In this document: piece by piece, positions 24,938-30,631 of the stretch
How the letters are laid out: each line of letters begins with the position of its first letter
Position numbering within the stretch: position 1 is the stretch's first letter
From: an uncultured Pelagibacteraceae bacterium
GTDB taxonomy: Bacteria > Pseudomonadota > Alphaproteobacteria > Pelagibacterales > Pelagibacteraceae
Direction: 5' to 3'
Assembly (NCBI GenBank): GCA_902580445.1
Contig: CACHKQ010000004.1
Span: forward strand, 1-64,000
DNA length: 64,000 bases
The notes under the pieces: generated by a model
The model's input: the letters and a program-made list of their open reading frames with translations, nothing else
What the model was told of the DNA's origin: nothing
Databases searched by the model: none
Made by a program: the position numbers and the translations under genes

Positions 24938-24955
24938 GTTGCAAATATAAGTTCA

Positions 24956-25822
24956 GTGAACTTAAAACTTGCACCTTCTGACTATGAAATCTACATTCCA
25001 ATAGCAGAATGGATTGAAAGAAATATTAAAGAGTGGCTGTTTACACAACGGCCGCTCTTTAAGAAGCTAGCTGCACCCATTGATGCTACTCTCGAAGGAT
25101 TAGATACTCTATTCAATTGGATACCATTTCCAATTGTTATTTTAATATTTATTTTTTTTTCGTGGAAAACAAACGGAATAAAATTTGCTTTTTTTGCAGC
25201 TATAAGTTTAATCGCTATTGATTTAGTTGATTTGTGGCAAGAAACTATGACAACGCTTGCTATGATTTTTACTGCCGTTATATTTTGTATGATTATTGGA
25301 ATTCCTTTAGGTATTGCTGCGTCCAGAAGTAGAGTTTTTGAGATAATTTTAAGGCCTATACTAGACATAATGCAAACTATACCTAGTTTTGTCTACCTTA
25401 TACCTGTTGTCATGTTATTTGGAGTTGGACTAACACCAGGAGTGGTAGCGACTATTATATTTGCGTTGCCCCCAGTCATTAGACTTACTAATTTAGGAAT
25501 AAGACAAGTTGGCAAAGGATTTAAAGAAGCAGGCGCAAGCTTGGGATTATCAAAATTTAAAATTTTGCATAGAATTGAATTACCACTTGCACTAAAGACT
25601 ATTATGGCAGGTGTAAACCAAACATTAATGCTAGCTTTATCAATGGTTGTTATAGCAGCACTAATCGGGGCGGGTGGTCTAGGTTTGACTGTTTATGTTG
25701 CTCTTGGTAGATTAGATATTGGTGCAGCTGTAATTGGTGGTACAGGTATTGTAATATTAGCAATAGTTTTAGACAGAATAACTCAAAAAATCGTTCCACA
25801 AGATAATATTAAAACTAGGTAA
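24956..25822 (+). CDS. proW: Glycine betaine/proline ABC transporter, permease ProW
   Basis: Inner-membrane permease partner of ProX. It begins with GTG and has 288 residues: an amphipathic N-terminal stretch, about six membrane spans, and the BPD permease coupling motif EAGASLGLSKFKILHRIELPLALKTIMAG near 196-224. LDIMQTIPSFVYLIPVVML and GAGGLGLTVYVALGRLDIGAA also match ProW. No gene for the ATPase ProV lies next to it; the next gene is an EgtD-like methyltransferase. The ATPase must be elsewhere or be shared. Confidence 0.93.
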   Translation: MNLKLAPSDYEIYIPIAEWIERNIKEWLFTQRPLFKKLAAPIDATLEGLDTLFNWIPFPIVILIFIFFSWKTNGIKFAFFAAISLIAIDLVDLWQETMTTLAMIFTAVIFCMIIGIPLGIAASRSRVFEIILRPILDIMQTIPSFVYLIPVVMLFGVGLTPGVVATIIFALPPVIRLTNLGIRQVGKGFKEAGASLGLSKFKILHRIELPLALKTIMAGVNQTLMLALSMVVIAALIGAGGLGLTVYVALGRLDIGAAVIGGTGIVILAIVLDRITQKIVPQDNIKTR

Positions 25823-26786: not shown

Positions 26787-26801
26787 TGATAATCATTATC
26801 A
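26787..26801. promoter_or_regulatory. Fur-box-like operator
   Basis: GATAATCATTATC (26788-26800) is a perfect 6-1-6 inverted repeat (GATAAT-C-ATTATC), the core of the classical Fur box, extended by T and A on either side. It lies 34 bases before the ATG of the ferric-iron-binding protein gene, where a repressor would block transcription. Fur-family proteins in Alphaproteobacteria (Fur, Mur, Irr) differ in metal response, so which one binds is open. Confidence 0.7.
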
Positions 26802-26834: not shown

Positions 26835-27869
26835 ATGAATAAGTTAATTAAAATAATTGGACTAGCTATTGTTGGTTTGTTTTCAACATTGTTAGTTGCA
26901 AATTCAGTTTTTGCAAATGAAGTGAATGTTTTTAGTGCAAGACATTACGATTCTGATGTTCAACTTTATAAAAAATTTACATCAAAAACTGGAATAAAAG
27001 TAAATGTAGTATCTGGAAAAGATAAAGCATTACAAAAAAGAATCAAAGAGGAAGGGAAGGACAGCAAAGCAGATATTTACATAACCGCAGATGCTGGAAG
27101 ATTAGGAGCTTTTCAAGCTGAAGGAATGTTTCAAAAGGGAGCAAGTTCAGCGGCCCTAAAAAAAGTTGTACCTGCTAATTTTAGATCACCTTATTGGGTT
27201 GGAATAGCAAAAAGAGCAAGAATAATTTATTACAATCCAAAAACTGTAAATCCTTCCTGGAATATGACCTATGAAGATTTAGCTGATCCAAAATACAAAG
27301 GTAGAGTAGTAATAAGAAAATCAAGCAACATTTACAATCAGTCTTTAGTTGCATCACTTATTAAAAATAATGGTGAAAAAAATACTGCAGCTTGGGCTAA
27401 AGGAATGGTAAATAACTTTGCTAGAAAACCAACCGGTAACGACAGAGCACAGATATTAGCTGTAGCTGCTGGAGAAGCAGATTGGGCTGTAGCAAATACT
27501 TATTACTTAGCTTTAATGTTATCTGGAAAAAAAGGTGCCGAACAACAAGCGGCAGCAAAAAAAGTAATGCCTTTCTTTCCAAACCAGGATGGACGAGGCA
27601 CCCATATGAATATAAGTGGTGGAGGCATATTAAAACATGCACCAAATAAAGCTAATGCAGTTAAATTGTTAGAGTTTTTATTAACCCCTGAAGCTCAACA
27701 ACATATTGTTAACAACACTTTTGAGTATCCAATGATACCTGGAGTGAAAGCAAATAAATTAATTGCACAATTTGGTTTAGATTTTAAACAAGATCTAAAA
27801 ATAAAAGTTTCTAATTATGGAAAACTCCAAGCAAAAGCTTTGAAAGTAATGAACGAAGCCGGCTGGTAA
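26835..27869 (+). CDS. fbpA: Ferric iron ABC transporter, substrate-binding protein (FbpA/AfuA type)
   Basis: A periplasmic iron-binding protein of 344 residues with a signal peptide (about 1-28, ending SVFANE). The mature part starts NEVNVFSARHYDSDVQLYKKF, the usual FbpA opening. Later parts include DIYITADAGRLGAFQ, a YNP segment, KPTGNDRAQILAVAAGEADWAVANTYYLALM with the paired tyrosines that bind iron in this family, and the closing SGGGILKHAPNKANAVKLLEFLLTPEAQ. It has a good ribosome site (AAAGGAG, 26821-26827) and a Fur-box-like site upstream. It is the first gene of the iron import operon. Confidence 0.94.
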   Translation: MNKLIKIIGLAIVGLFSTLLVANSVFANEVNVFSARHYDSDVQLYKKFTSKTGIKVNVVSGKDKALQKRIKEEGKDSKADIYITADAGRLGAFQAEGMFQKGASSAALKKVVPANFRSPYWVGIAKRARIIYYNPKTVNPSWNMTYEDLADPKYKGRVVIRKSSNIYNQSLVASLIKNNGEKNTAAWAKGMVNNFARKPTGNDRAQILAVAAGEADWAVANTYYLALMLSGKKGAEQQAAAKKVMPFFPNQDGRGTHMNISGGGILKHAPNKANAVKLLEFLLTPEAQQHIVNNTFEYPMIPGVKANKLIAQFGLDFKQDLKIKVSNYGKLQAKALKVMNEAGW

Positions 27870-27888
27870 TTTTATAATAGAATAATTT

Positions 27889-27926
27889 AGTCTCTGGACT
27901 CCTCCGGGGACTGAATTCAGGAGGAG
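27889..27926 (+). promoter_or_regulatory. Mutually exclusive hairpins masking the iron permease ribosome site
   Basis: CTCCTCC (27899-27905) is a perfect complement of GGAGGAG (27920-27926), which is the Shine-Dalgarno of the next gene. This hairpin (7-bp stem, 14-base loop) would hide the ribosome site. A second stem, AGTCTC (27889-27894) with GGGACT (27907-27912), uses the same anti-SD stretch as its loop and cannot form fully together with the first. It could lower permease expression relative to the binding protein, or act as a switch. Confidence 0.55.
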
Positions 27927-27928
27927 AA

Positions 27929-29545
27929 TTGACAAAGAGAATAAATTTTTGGTTTATATTTGCATTTATAGTACCTTTACTTGTAGCAATACCTATATTT
28001 ACAGTTTTTTTAAGTTTTTTCGATACAACTGGTAATTATTTAGATCTTTTAAAAGACACTTTCCTTTTAAAGTATTTAAGCAATTCATTCTTAATTTTAT
28101 TGGGTGTTTTATCGTTAACTTTTATATTTGGAGTTACCTCAGCTTATTTTGTTTCTTTTTATAAGTTTCCTGGATCAAATTTTTTTAAATGGGCGCTAAT
28201 ATTATCTTTTGCTGTTCCAGCTTATATTTACGCTTATTCTTTAGTTGCTTTTTTCGAAAATTATGGAACCGCATTCAGTATTTTAACCTTTTTGTTCGGA
28301 GAAGGTGATTTTAATAAGTACATACCAAAATTTGATGGATTAATAGGTTCTATGTTTTCAATTTCTTTCTCTTTGTTTGGATATGTTTATGTATTAACAA
28401 GAGCTTCTTTCATATTTCAGTCTCACAATCTAATTGAAGTAGGAAAAAATTTAGGATTGTCTTCTTATGAAAGCTTTTTTAAAATTATTTTACCTTCAGC
28501 ACGTCCTGCAATAGTCGTAGGTTTGTCTCTTGTTGCAATGGAAACTTTGTCAGATTTTGGTACTGTAGATTTTTTTAGTATATCAACATTAACTACGGCA
28601 ATTTATAATGCTTGGATTTCTTTTGATGACCTAACAACTGCAAATCAATTATCTTTTGTTTTATTATTTTTTATTCTTCTACTATTTGTTATTGAAAATA
28701 TATCCAGAAAAGGCGCAAAGTATCACCAAAATTCAAAAGGTAATAAGCCTATTCCAAAAATCCAATTAGTGGGCGGTAAATCTATTTTTGCTACGTCATT
28801 TTGTTCGATATTATTTTTTTGCAGCTTCATTTTTCCAGTTTCACAAATGACTTATTGGACAATTAAATTTCCAAAGTATTTTCAGGATATAAATTTCTGG
28901 TCACTAAATATGAATACATTATTATTAGTATTTTTATCTAGTTTATTCTTGATCACATTTTCATTTATGACAAATTATGGAAATAGAGTATCAAAAAACA
29001 AACTAATAAGTTTTTTGTCTACTTTCTCTGTATCAGGATATGCGTTACCAGGAATAATTTTAGCAGTAGCTTTTATAACATTTATTTCTTGGTTCAGCGA
29101 CTTGTTAAGTTCAATCTTTGGAATAAATAGTTTTAAAAACGTATTTATTGGATCTGTAGTTGGTCTTATAATTGCATATTTTGTTAGATTTTTTTCACTT
29201 TCTTACAATGGAATTAAATCTGGATATTCAAAAATAAATAATTCTATTGATGAAAATGCATATCTTTTAGGATATTCCAAATTTAAAACTTTTTCTAATA
29301 TTCATTTGCCGTATTTAAAAACCAATATATTATTAGTTGGTGTTTTAATAGCTTTAGAAATTATTAAAGAACTGCCAATTACATTAATATTGAGACCCTT
29401 TAATTTCGAAACCTTCGCAACAAAAGCCTATTCTTATGCCGCACAAGATTTATTAGAAGCTGCAGCTTTTCCTTCATTATGTTTGATATTCTGGGCAAGT
29501 ATATTCATATTGTTTATTTCTAAATATATACTTTCAGAAAAATAA
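27929..29545 (+). CDS. fbpB: Ferric iron ABC transporter, permease (FbpB/AfuB type)
   Basis: Inner-membrane permease with a duplicated BPD-transport core: 538 residues, about twelve spans. EAA-type coupling motifs sit in each half: EVGKNLGLSSYESFFKIILPSARPAIVVG near 171 and DENAYLLGYSKFKTFSNIHLPYLKTNILLVG near 440. The start is TTG at 27929, chosen because a near-perfect GGAGGAG ends 2 bases before it and no better ATG is near. That ribosome site can pair with an upstream CTCCTCC. It lies between the binding protein and ATPase genes, completing an iron(III) importer. Confidence 0.93.
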   Translation: MTKRINFWFIFAFIVPLLVAIPIFTVFLSFFDTTGNYLDLLKDTFLLKYLSNSFLILLGVLSLTFIFGVTSAYFVSFYKFPGSNFFKWALILSFAVPAYIYAYSLVAFFENYGTAFSILTFLFGEGDFNKYIPKFDGLIGSMFSISFSLFGYVYVLTRASFIFQSHNLIEVGKNLGLSSYESFFKIILPSARPAIVVGLSLVAMETLSDFGTVDFFSISTLTTAIYNAWISFDDLTTANQLSFVLLFFILLLFVIENISRKGAKYHQNSKGNKPIPKIQLVGGKSIFATSFCSILFFCSFIFPVSQMTYWTIKFPKYFQDINFWSLNMNTLLLVFLSSLFLITFSFMTNYGNRVSKNKLISFLSTFSVSGYALPGIILAVAFITFISWFSDLLSSIFGINSFKNVFIGSVVGLIIAYFVRFFSLSYNGIKSGYSKINNSIDENAYLLGYSKFKTFSNIHLPYLKTNILLVGVLIALEIIKELPITLILRPFNFETFATKAYSYAAQDLLEAAAFPSLCLIFWASIFILFISKYILSEK

Positions 29546-29560
29546 AGTTATAGTAATCAA

Positions 29561-30631
29561 ATGTCTTCTAATTTTTTAGAAATTAATAATGCTACATTTA
29601 TAGCCAGCGATAATAATAAAGTTAAAAATGTATCTTTAACAATAAAAAAAAAGGGCGAAATTGTTTGTTTACTCGGACCATCCGGCGTTGGAAAAACTAC
29701 TATTTTAAGAACAATTGCAGGTCTACAAAATCTTAAATCTGGCGAGATTAAACTTAAAGATAAAATAATTTCATCCAAAAACTTTAATTTAGAACCTGAA
29801 AAAAGAAACATAGCAATGTGTTTTCAAGATAATTCATTATTTCCACATTTTAATGTTTTAGAAAATATTAATATCGGGTCAAAAAGAAAAAATGGTTCTA
29901 AATTTAATTATTCAGACAATGATTTAATCAAAATTTTACATTTAGAAGATATAAAAAACAAATATCCACATCAAATAAGTGCAGGTGAAGCACAACGTGT
30001 TTCATTAGCAAGATCATTACTTTCCAAACCCGATTTACTTTTATTGGACGAACCTTTTGCAAATATAGATGCTACTTTAAAAGAAGAATTACAAAAAAAA
30101 ATTAAAAATATTCTCAAAGAGTTCGATATAACAACCTTAATTGTAACTCACGACTCTTTCGAAGCTTTTTTTCTTGGAGATAAATGCGGTATTCTATTAG
30201 ACCAGTGTTTAAAACAATATGACATACCTTATAATATTCACCATGAACCTAATTCAATCGAAGTTGCAAAATTTTTAAATAGAGGTGTATTTATTGATGT
30301 TAAAGTTGCAGAAACTGATTGCGCTGTTCATAGTTTAATACATCAAGAATTAGGAGAGATAAGAGGCAAATTATTAAATAACTTTCCTGTTGGTTCAAAA
30401 GTTAAACTATTATTACAGCCTGAAGATTTAATACATGACGATCAAAGTAAATTAAAATTAGAAGTGGTTGACAGAAAATTTAGGGGGACTAATTTTATTT
30501 ATACTTTAAAAACTAACAAAAAAGAGGAAATTCCCGTGTTTGTTCATTCTCATCATATTCATCAACATGAAAAAAATGAAAAATTTGGTATCAAGTCACC
30601 TATTTTTATTGACCATTTAGTATGTTTTTAA
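29561..30631 (+). CDS. fbpC: Ferric iron ABC transporter, ATPase (FbpC/AfuC type)
   Basis: Cytoplasmic ATPase energising the iron importer. Walker A is LLGPSGVGKTT near residue 43, the Q loop MCFQDNSLFPHFNVLENI near 86, the signature ISAGEAQRVSLARSLLSKP (SAGEA instead of SGGQ), Walker B LLLLDEPFANID, and the switch His in IVTHDSFEAF. The last third (about 240-356) is a TOBE-like regulatory region. It follows the permease after 15 bases and closes the fbpABC operon; two tRNA genes come next. Confidence 0.94.
   Translation: MSSNFLEINNATFIASDNNKVKNVSLTIKKKGEIVCLLGPSGVGKTTILRTIAGLQNLKSGEIKLKDKIISSKNFNLEPEKRNIAMCFQDNSLFPHFNVLENINIGSKRKNGSKFNYSDNDLIKILHLEDIKNKYPHQISAGEAQRVSLARSLLSKPDLLLLDEPFANIDATLKEELQKKIKNILKEFDITTLIVTHDSFEAFFLGDKCGILLDQCLKQYDIPYNIHHEPNSIEVAKFLNRGVFIDVKVAETDCAVHSLIHQELGEIRGKLLNNFPVGSKVKLLLQPEDLIHDDQSKLKLEVVDRKFRGTNFIYTLKTNKKEEIPVFVHSHHIHQHEKNEKFGIKSPIFIDHLVCF

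Follow-up and report, generated by a model that had tools for sequence, protein, structure and literature searches.

A conserved hairpin between the binding-protein and permease genes of a SAR11 sfu operon, with a loop complementary to the permease ribosome site

Between the binding-protein gene sfuC and the permease gene sfuB of a SAR11 ABC transporter operon lies a conserved intercistronic RNA hairpin which, in our view, probably sets the expression ratio of the two proteins, with a clade-specific pairing of its loop to the sfuB ribosome site adding further tuning. The element was found in a stretch of 64,000 nucleotides from an uncultured Pelagibacteraceae bacterium, hereafter the window. 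The initial annotation of this DNA had claimed a structured RNA between the two genes, which its placement and its conservation support, and had allowed that it might simply set the protein ratio, the reading we prefer here. Judged by the sequences compared, it is conservation, more than folding energy, that provides the strong evidence for the element.

The window genome belongs to SAR11 (assembly of 847 kb, 82% complete), and its SfuB permease is 95–97% identical to proteins of single-cell genomes labelled Pelagibacteraceae. The operon comprises the following features:

26787–26801, + strand: presumed Fur-like box upstream of sfuC (TGATAATCATTATCA, exact match), given as context and outside the hairpin
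26835–27869, + strand: sfuC, periplasmic (iron) solute-binding protein (Pfam SBP_bac_6/1/8)
27929–29545, + strand: sfuB, ABC permease of 538 aa with a TTG start (Pfam BPD_transp_1)
29561–30631, + strand: sfuA, ABC ATP-binding subunit (Pfam ABC_tran)

The start of sfuB is likely the TTG at 27929; relatives align at the same point, mostly with ATG. The motif upstream of sfuC, which we take to be a Fur-like box, precedes the gene with at most two mismatches in all 93 distinct upstream regions of relatives, and iron control of transcription probably acts through this box, not at the hairpin. The sfu names were transferred by family and gene order from SAR11_1236–1238, with sfuC corresponding to SAR11_1238 in the relevant passages of PMC2864753. 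Since NCBIfam yields only matches below its cut-offs for the sfu genes, the best of them to 2-aminoethylphosphonate-type transporters, we infer iron as the substrate from these names, the iron response of strain HTCC1062 and the Fur-like box. Passages of the same paper give, for HTCC1062 under iron limitation, mRNA increases of 16-fold for sfuC, 10-fold for sfuB and 5-fold for sfuA.

The element has a G+C content of 54% (27886–27926), against 28% in the window, and consists of five parts:

27886–27894, + strand: 5′ arm of stem S1 (TTTAGTCTC); all 12 pairs of the extended stem are kept in five of six representatives
27895–27898, + strand: TGGA, either loop L1 of a pseudoknot or the inner part of an extended hairpin, pairing with 27903–27906
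27899–27905, + strand: CTCCTCC, 5′ arm of stem S2 and complement of the sfuB ribosome site
27907–27915, + strand: 3′ arm of stem S1 (GGGACTGAA)
27920–27926, + strand: GGAGGAG, Shine-Dalgarno site of sfuB and 3′ arm of S2

Both pairings named in the initial annotation are present. CTCCTCC (27899–27905) is a perfect complement of GGAGGAG (27920–27926), 14 nt apart, and AGTCTC (27889–27894) pairs with GGGACT (27907–27912) through a stem with one U-G pair, which grows to the nine pairs of S1 (27886–27894 with 27907–27915, including two U-G pairs in the window) and extends through TGG(A)/(T)CCG into a hairpin of 12–13 pairs, a fold in which the ribosome site stays accessible. The proposed anti-SD/anti-anti-SD arrangement held in one respect, in that the loop is complementary to the ribosome site, but the two stems are not mutually exclusive, as they have no base in common. 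Because the 5′ arm of S2 lies inside the loop of S1 and shares no base with it, the two are compatible as an H-type pseudoknot, and S2 really competes with the inner pairs that extend the hairpin and occupy 27903–27906. By sequence, the S1 loop can pair with the ribosome site and the connecting loops are sterically allowed in such a fold, with a predicted geometry of six to nine pairs in S1, seven in S2 and loops L1, L2 and L3 of 4, 1 and 4–7 nt. All nine S1 pairs would make L3 too short, so that the outer A-U pairs would have to open.

Covariance-model and pattern searches over 397 genomes of the family recovered 21 genomes with the element. All of them belong to its own genus, which is represented by 31 genomes, and each has one copy, always between sfuC and sfuB. 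A match to SfuC occurs in 26 of these 31 genomes, and the five that have SfuC and lack the element are sister lineages with another hairpin or none. Among the matches listed, no convincing copy was found beyond the 21 same-genus loci, where hits with E values from 0.02 upwards and patterns with one or two mismatches were counted as chance without inspection. The genomic repetition that characterizes REP elements was likewise not seen, with one element match in the window's own genome.

Together with 80 named loci, the 21 genomes gave 35 locus entries, some genomes being represented twice, and these reduced to 16 distinct junctions. In the alignment, 99.6% of cells are paired for the pseudoknot and 97.1% for the extended hairpin; for S2 the figure is 100%, with six of seven pairs invariant and one changing from C-G to U-G. 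The covariation check that the initial annotation had called for returned no two-sided change in any of the 16 pairs of the element, nor in the extended hairpin, an absence that is uninformative as a refutation because the element is nearly invariant. Changes that keep a pair predominate (C-G to U-G, U-A to U-G, U-G to C-G and G-C to G-U), the exceptions being a pair broken by U-A to C-A in L011 and one G missing in L003. CTCCTC is fixed in all 16 distinct sequences, its final neighbour being C or T (T in L100), and the loop base directly next to it, 27898, varies between A, T and C.

The strength of this conservation is best seen against the flanking genes. Between L006, from a near clade, and L013, from a distant one, one of 32 core bases differs, compared with 53% of fourfold sites in sfuB and 57% in sfuC; between L100 and L006, three core bases differ, with 52% and 57% of fourfold sites. 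Retention of 31 of 32 core bases at such fourfold divergence points to strong purifying selection that includes the loop CTCCTC. Separately, positions 27911–27920 read CTGAATTCAG in the window and in L096 and L097, and CTAAATTTAG in near relatives; the changes at 27913 and 27918 are linked and keep a palindrome beside the ribosome site, which is absent in L013, L100 and L101.

Tests against shuffled sequences give a more graded picture. Dinucleotide shuffling of the 49 nt that precede the ribosome site produced CTCCTCC in 130 of 20,000 cases; a nine-pair helix (G-U allowed) arose in 308 of 2,000 shuffles and a 12-pair helix in 14 of 2,000. The folding energy of a 101-nt frame is not striking (z −1.5, with 15 of 200 shuffles equally good), and that of a 60-nt frame, in which the sfuC hairpin reaches −19.3 kcal/mol, is moderate (z −2.66).

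The same junction in other SAR11 lineages, for which we folded 89 distinct 70-nt stretches behind sfuC, places the element in a broader setting. Strong hairpins unrelated to it occur in three groups (L026, L027, L032, L038 and L071; L024, L043, L045, L050 and L068; and, within the same genus, L055, identical to L116, with L113, L114 and L115), whose members have z values from −1.5 to −6.8. Their 5′ arms begin 15–16, 13 and 12 nt past the sfuC stop, respectively, compared with 16 or 13 nt for the window element. Two-sided changes among standard pairs affect five, one and three pairs in the three groups, and zero to two when the arms are slid by 1–3 bases; the arms were picked by eye, which biases towards pairing, and the changes were counted by script, with the slid arms as a check. 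The hairpin is thus kept across relatives in these three groups as its sequence changes. Neither the strong ribosome site nor its complement was found in their junctions, which leaves a hairpin placed directly after the gene of the binding protein as the common trait; the complement to the ribosome site is, on this sequence comparison, a clade-specific addition. Further lineages have no hairpin behind sfuC (for example, L019, L058 and L076), or a small open reading frame, or extra genes in the gap.

These intervening genes deserve a description of their own. Many SAR11 lineages (L020–L022, L028, L031, L035–L037, L046, L048, L053, L061 and others) carry, directly behind sfuC, a small open reading frame of about 54–64 aa that encodes a C-x-x-C motif (CSPC or CEPC, for example); for three of these frames Pfam gave no match. 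Its start holds a nine-base inverted repeat, GGCGAACAA/TTGTTCGCC, within the first 75 nt behind sfuC (L054, L031, L061 and L048). In L054, which has a shorter junction, both sides have changed from C-G to A-U and the conserved Cys codon is lost; L031 shows A-U to U-A, and other members break the repeat, which may be a hairpin kept inside coding sequence. Elsewhere, a gene of about 181–188 aa (L028, L035, L059 and L073), presumably redoxin-like, or of about 146–148 aa (L080 and L114), presumably flavodoxin-like, stands between sfuC and sfuB.

The complement does not come alone. Of 87 distinct junctions that could be placed (L095 is not among them), 16 have a strong ribosome site before sfuB, and 15 of these 16 carry an upstream complement of at least six bases, the exception being L051. 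All 15 placed junctions bearing the element use a TTG start, compared with 69 ATG, two TTG and one GTG among the remaining 72. Because TTG start, strong ribosome site and complement arose together in one clade, their association may reflect a single inherited event.

Hairpins behind binding-protein genes also recur within the window genome. A search for six families, covering part of the known diversity in an assembly that is 82% complete, identified six binding-protein genes ahead of a permease-type gene, a type confirmed by Pfam for five of them; for the one that follows the NMT1_3 gene in L163 Pfam gave no match, and it is assigned to this type by assumption. Two weak or cytosolic-looking hits to binding-protein families with no same-strand permease next to them were excluded before counting (L157, with a hairpin of −8.9 in 70 nt, and L162, with −14.6 in 80 nt). 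In five of the six (sfuC, an SBP_bac_8 gene, an NMT1_3 gene and two DctP genes), the first 60 nt past the stop contain a hairpin that folds at −18 kcal/mol or lower, and the OpuAC gene of the window has only −9.0 behind its stop. Among 48 same-strand junctions of the window, sfuC alone reaches −15. Without sfuC and OpuAC, four of five binding-protein genes compare with none of 46 same-strand junctions (Fisher 2e-5, at thresholds of −18 and −15, respectively), a control confounded by gap length because most junctions have tiny gaps. The seven window junctions with gaps of at least 30 nt, of which sfuC alone folds at −12 or better, provide a fairer if small control of none in six.

The strong hairpins outside the sfu operon lie in L158, L159, L160 and L163, and those of L159, L160 and L163 are followed by T-runs. 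These three may accordingly be partial terminators, a mechanism different from a decay barrier, and it is possible that the four hairpins act as partial terminators or decay barriers across the transporter set. Also in the window, the GTG start of the glycine-betaine permease (24956) sits at the loop of a seven-pair hairpin, TAAGTTC/GAACTTA (24948–24964).

The mechanism that we favour, and consider probable, is as follows. A hairpin beginning 12–16 nt after the sfuC stop would stand just outside the reach of a terminating ribosome. After cleavage downstream, it would block 3′-to-5′ decay of the sfuC message, and SfuC would come to outnumber SfuB as a result. In this clade only, the CTCCTCC loop could also bind the ribosome site of sfuB, giving an H-type pseudoknot that would lower initiation on the permease gene, a likely second brake on its translation. 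Conservation and co-occurrence suggest that pseudoknot, TTG start and strong ribosome site together tune sfuB translation, and no ligand would be required. The 16/10/5 mRNA gradient of HTCC1062 fits a decay barrier by analogy and does not show one.

The alternative that survives best, although we judge it unlikely, is a translational switch between the extended hairpin, with the ribosome site open, and the pseudoknot, with the site closed, governed by temperature or by RNA chaperones, CspE/CspL for example. By our own three-term estimate at 37 °C, the extended hairpin comes to −17.4 for the window and −20.3 for the consensus and the pseudoknot, with a penalty of 9.6 kcal, to −17.7 and −20.7, the two folds being within about 1 kcal of each other; this verdict, however, reverses within assumed penalties of 7 to 12 kcal. 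Cold favours the pseudoknot in the same rough estimate, but the nested ensemble keeps the ribosome site mostly open between 4 and 37 °C (0.72–0.87 unpaired), and a thermosensor, though conceivable, has nothing that speaks for it. The invariance of CTCCTC beside the variable 27898 agrees with a switch, as does the proposal, in passages of PMC2864753, that CspE/CspL act on mRNA structure in iron limitation. Against it stand the lack of a sensor domain and the hairpins without a complement in other lineages. A fuller version, in which ribosomes finishing sfuC, cold or cold-shock proteins would flip the element from a hairpin that blocks decay to a pseudoknot closing the ribosome site or back, and in which a single SAR11 clade would have acquired this switch along with its TTG start and strong ribosome site, appears to us quite unlikely. 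If true, one 40-base element would couple the stability of the binding-protein message to the translation of the permease.

Partial transcription termination between sfuC and sfuB is very doubtful. Similar hairpins behind other binding-protein genes carry T-runs (L159, L160 and L163), but the sfuC stem is followed by TTCAGGAGG, with no U-tract, and the terminator scan returned nothing, so an intrinsic terminator was rejected at this site and we favour a decay barrier over termination. We place slightly lower still an operator or other dyad acting at the DNA level, or conservation for a protein that binds the loop. The nine-base inverted arms, with centres 21 bp apart, and conservation at the level of primary sequence are in keeping with it; four of five substitutions in the 12-pair stem, however, keep the RNA pair as G-U or C-G, and most would break a DNA dyad, a weak argument in that about half of all transitions keep an RNA pair anyway. 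A scan for internal promoters at the junction found fewer promoter-like sites than in shuffles.

Extremely improbable, finally, is the riboswitch reading of the initial annotation, here a riboswitch that would control the permease in response to a metabolite or a metal: SAM-II and SAM-V bury a ribosome site in an H-type pseudoknot (in passages of PMC6061858) and SAM-V is known from SAR11 (PMC11508383), but the element occupies a single site in a single clade, with no convincing copy elsewhere in the 397 family genomes among the matches listed, it stands behind the first gene of the operon where a riboswitch is expected before it, its conservation reveals no core other than the stem, the loop and the ribosome site, and Rfam, run on the window at the gathering threshold and in a local search to an E value of 10, returned only tRNAs and one chance hit.

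SAR11 cells rely on very abundant binding proteins and have few regulators. If hairpins behind binding-protein genes are general in SAR11, an excess of catcher over channel could be read from sequence, and the unrelated hairpins at equal spacing suggest a fixed position with a freely changing sequence. With a loop able to cover its ribosome site, the permease gene would come under a further, compact level of control.

Published accounts of SAR11 structured RNAs, intercistronic hairpins, malE–malF and ribosome-site pseudoknots, as far as our literature search covered them, do not report the element, and a search on dctP–dctQ found nothing relevant. The portion of Meyer et al. 2009 (PMC2704228) that lists the gap upstream of sfuC names no sfuC–sfuB motif. 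SAM-II and SAM-V resemble the element in the H-type pseudoknot that is predicted for it around the ribosome site, and SAM-V also in its occurrence in SAR11, whereas the element has no Rfam similarity or ligand core, is intercistronic and would use the whole ribosome site for its second helix. The element resembles RNA thermometers in a helix that may mask the ribosome site, but the predicted competitor is here another stable hairpin, and Rfam finds no known thermometer motif. In Rhodobacter puf, also alphaproteobacterial, an intercistronic stem-loop reportedly acts as a decay barrier in a different operon, and we know of no complement to a ribosome site in that stem-loop.

The closest parallel is malE–malF of the E. 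coli malEFG operon and its differential decay. According to passages of PMC5927463, the stabilized gene in five E. coli ABC operons is invariably that of the binding protein, and a structure in the malE–malF gap protects malE. Like that structure, the sfuC hairpin is a stable fold at the 3′ end of a binding-protein gene, ahead of a permease gene on the same strand, and has no terminator U-tract; unlike it, the sfuC element is single-copy, is no REP repeat and has a loop that complements the ribosome site of the following gene, its effect on decay being a prediction. The hairpin is a new case of a known intercistronic type, and what sets it apart is a loop that could cover the ribosome site of the next gene.
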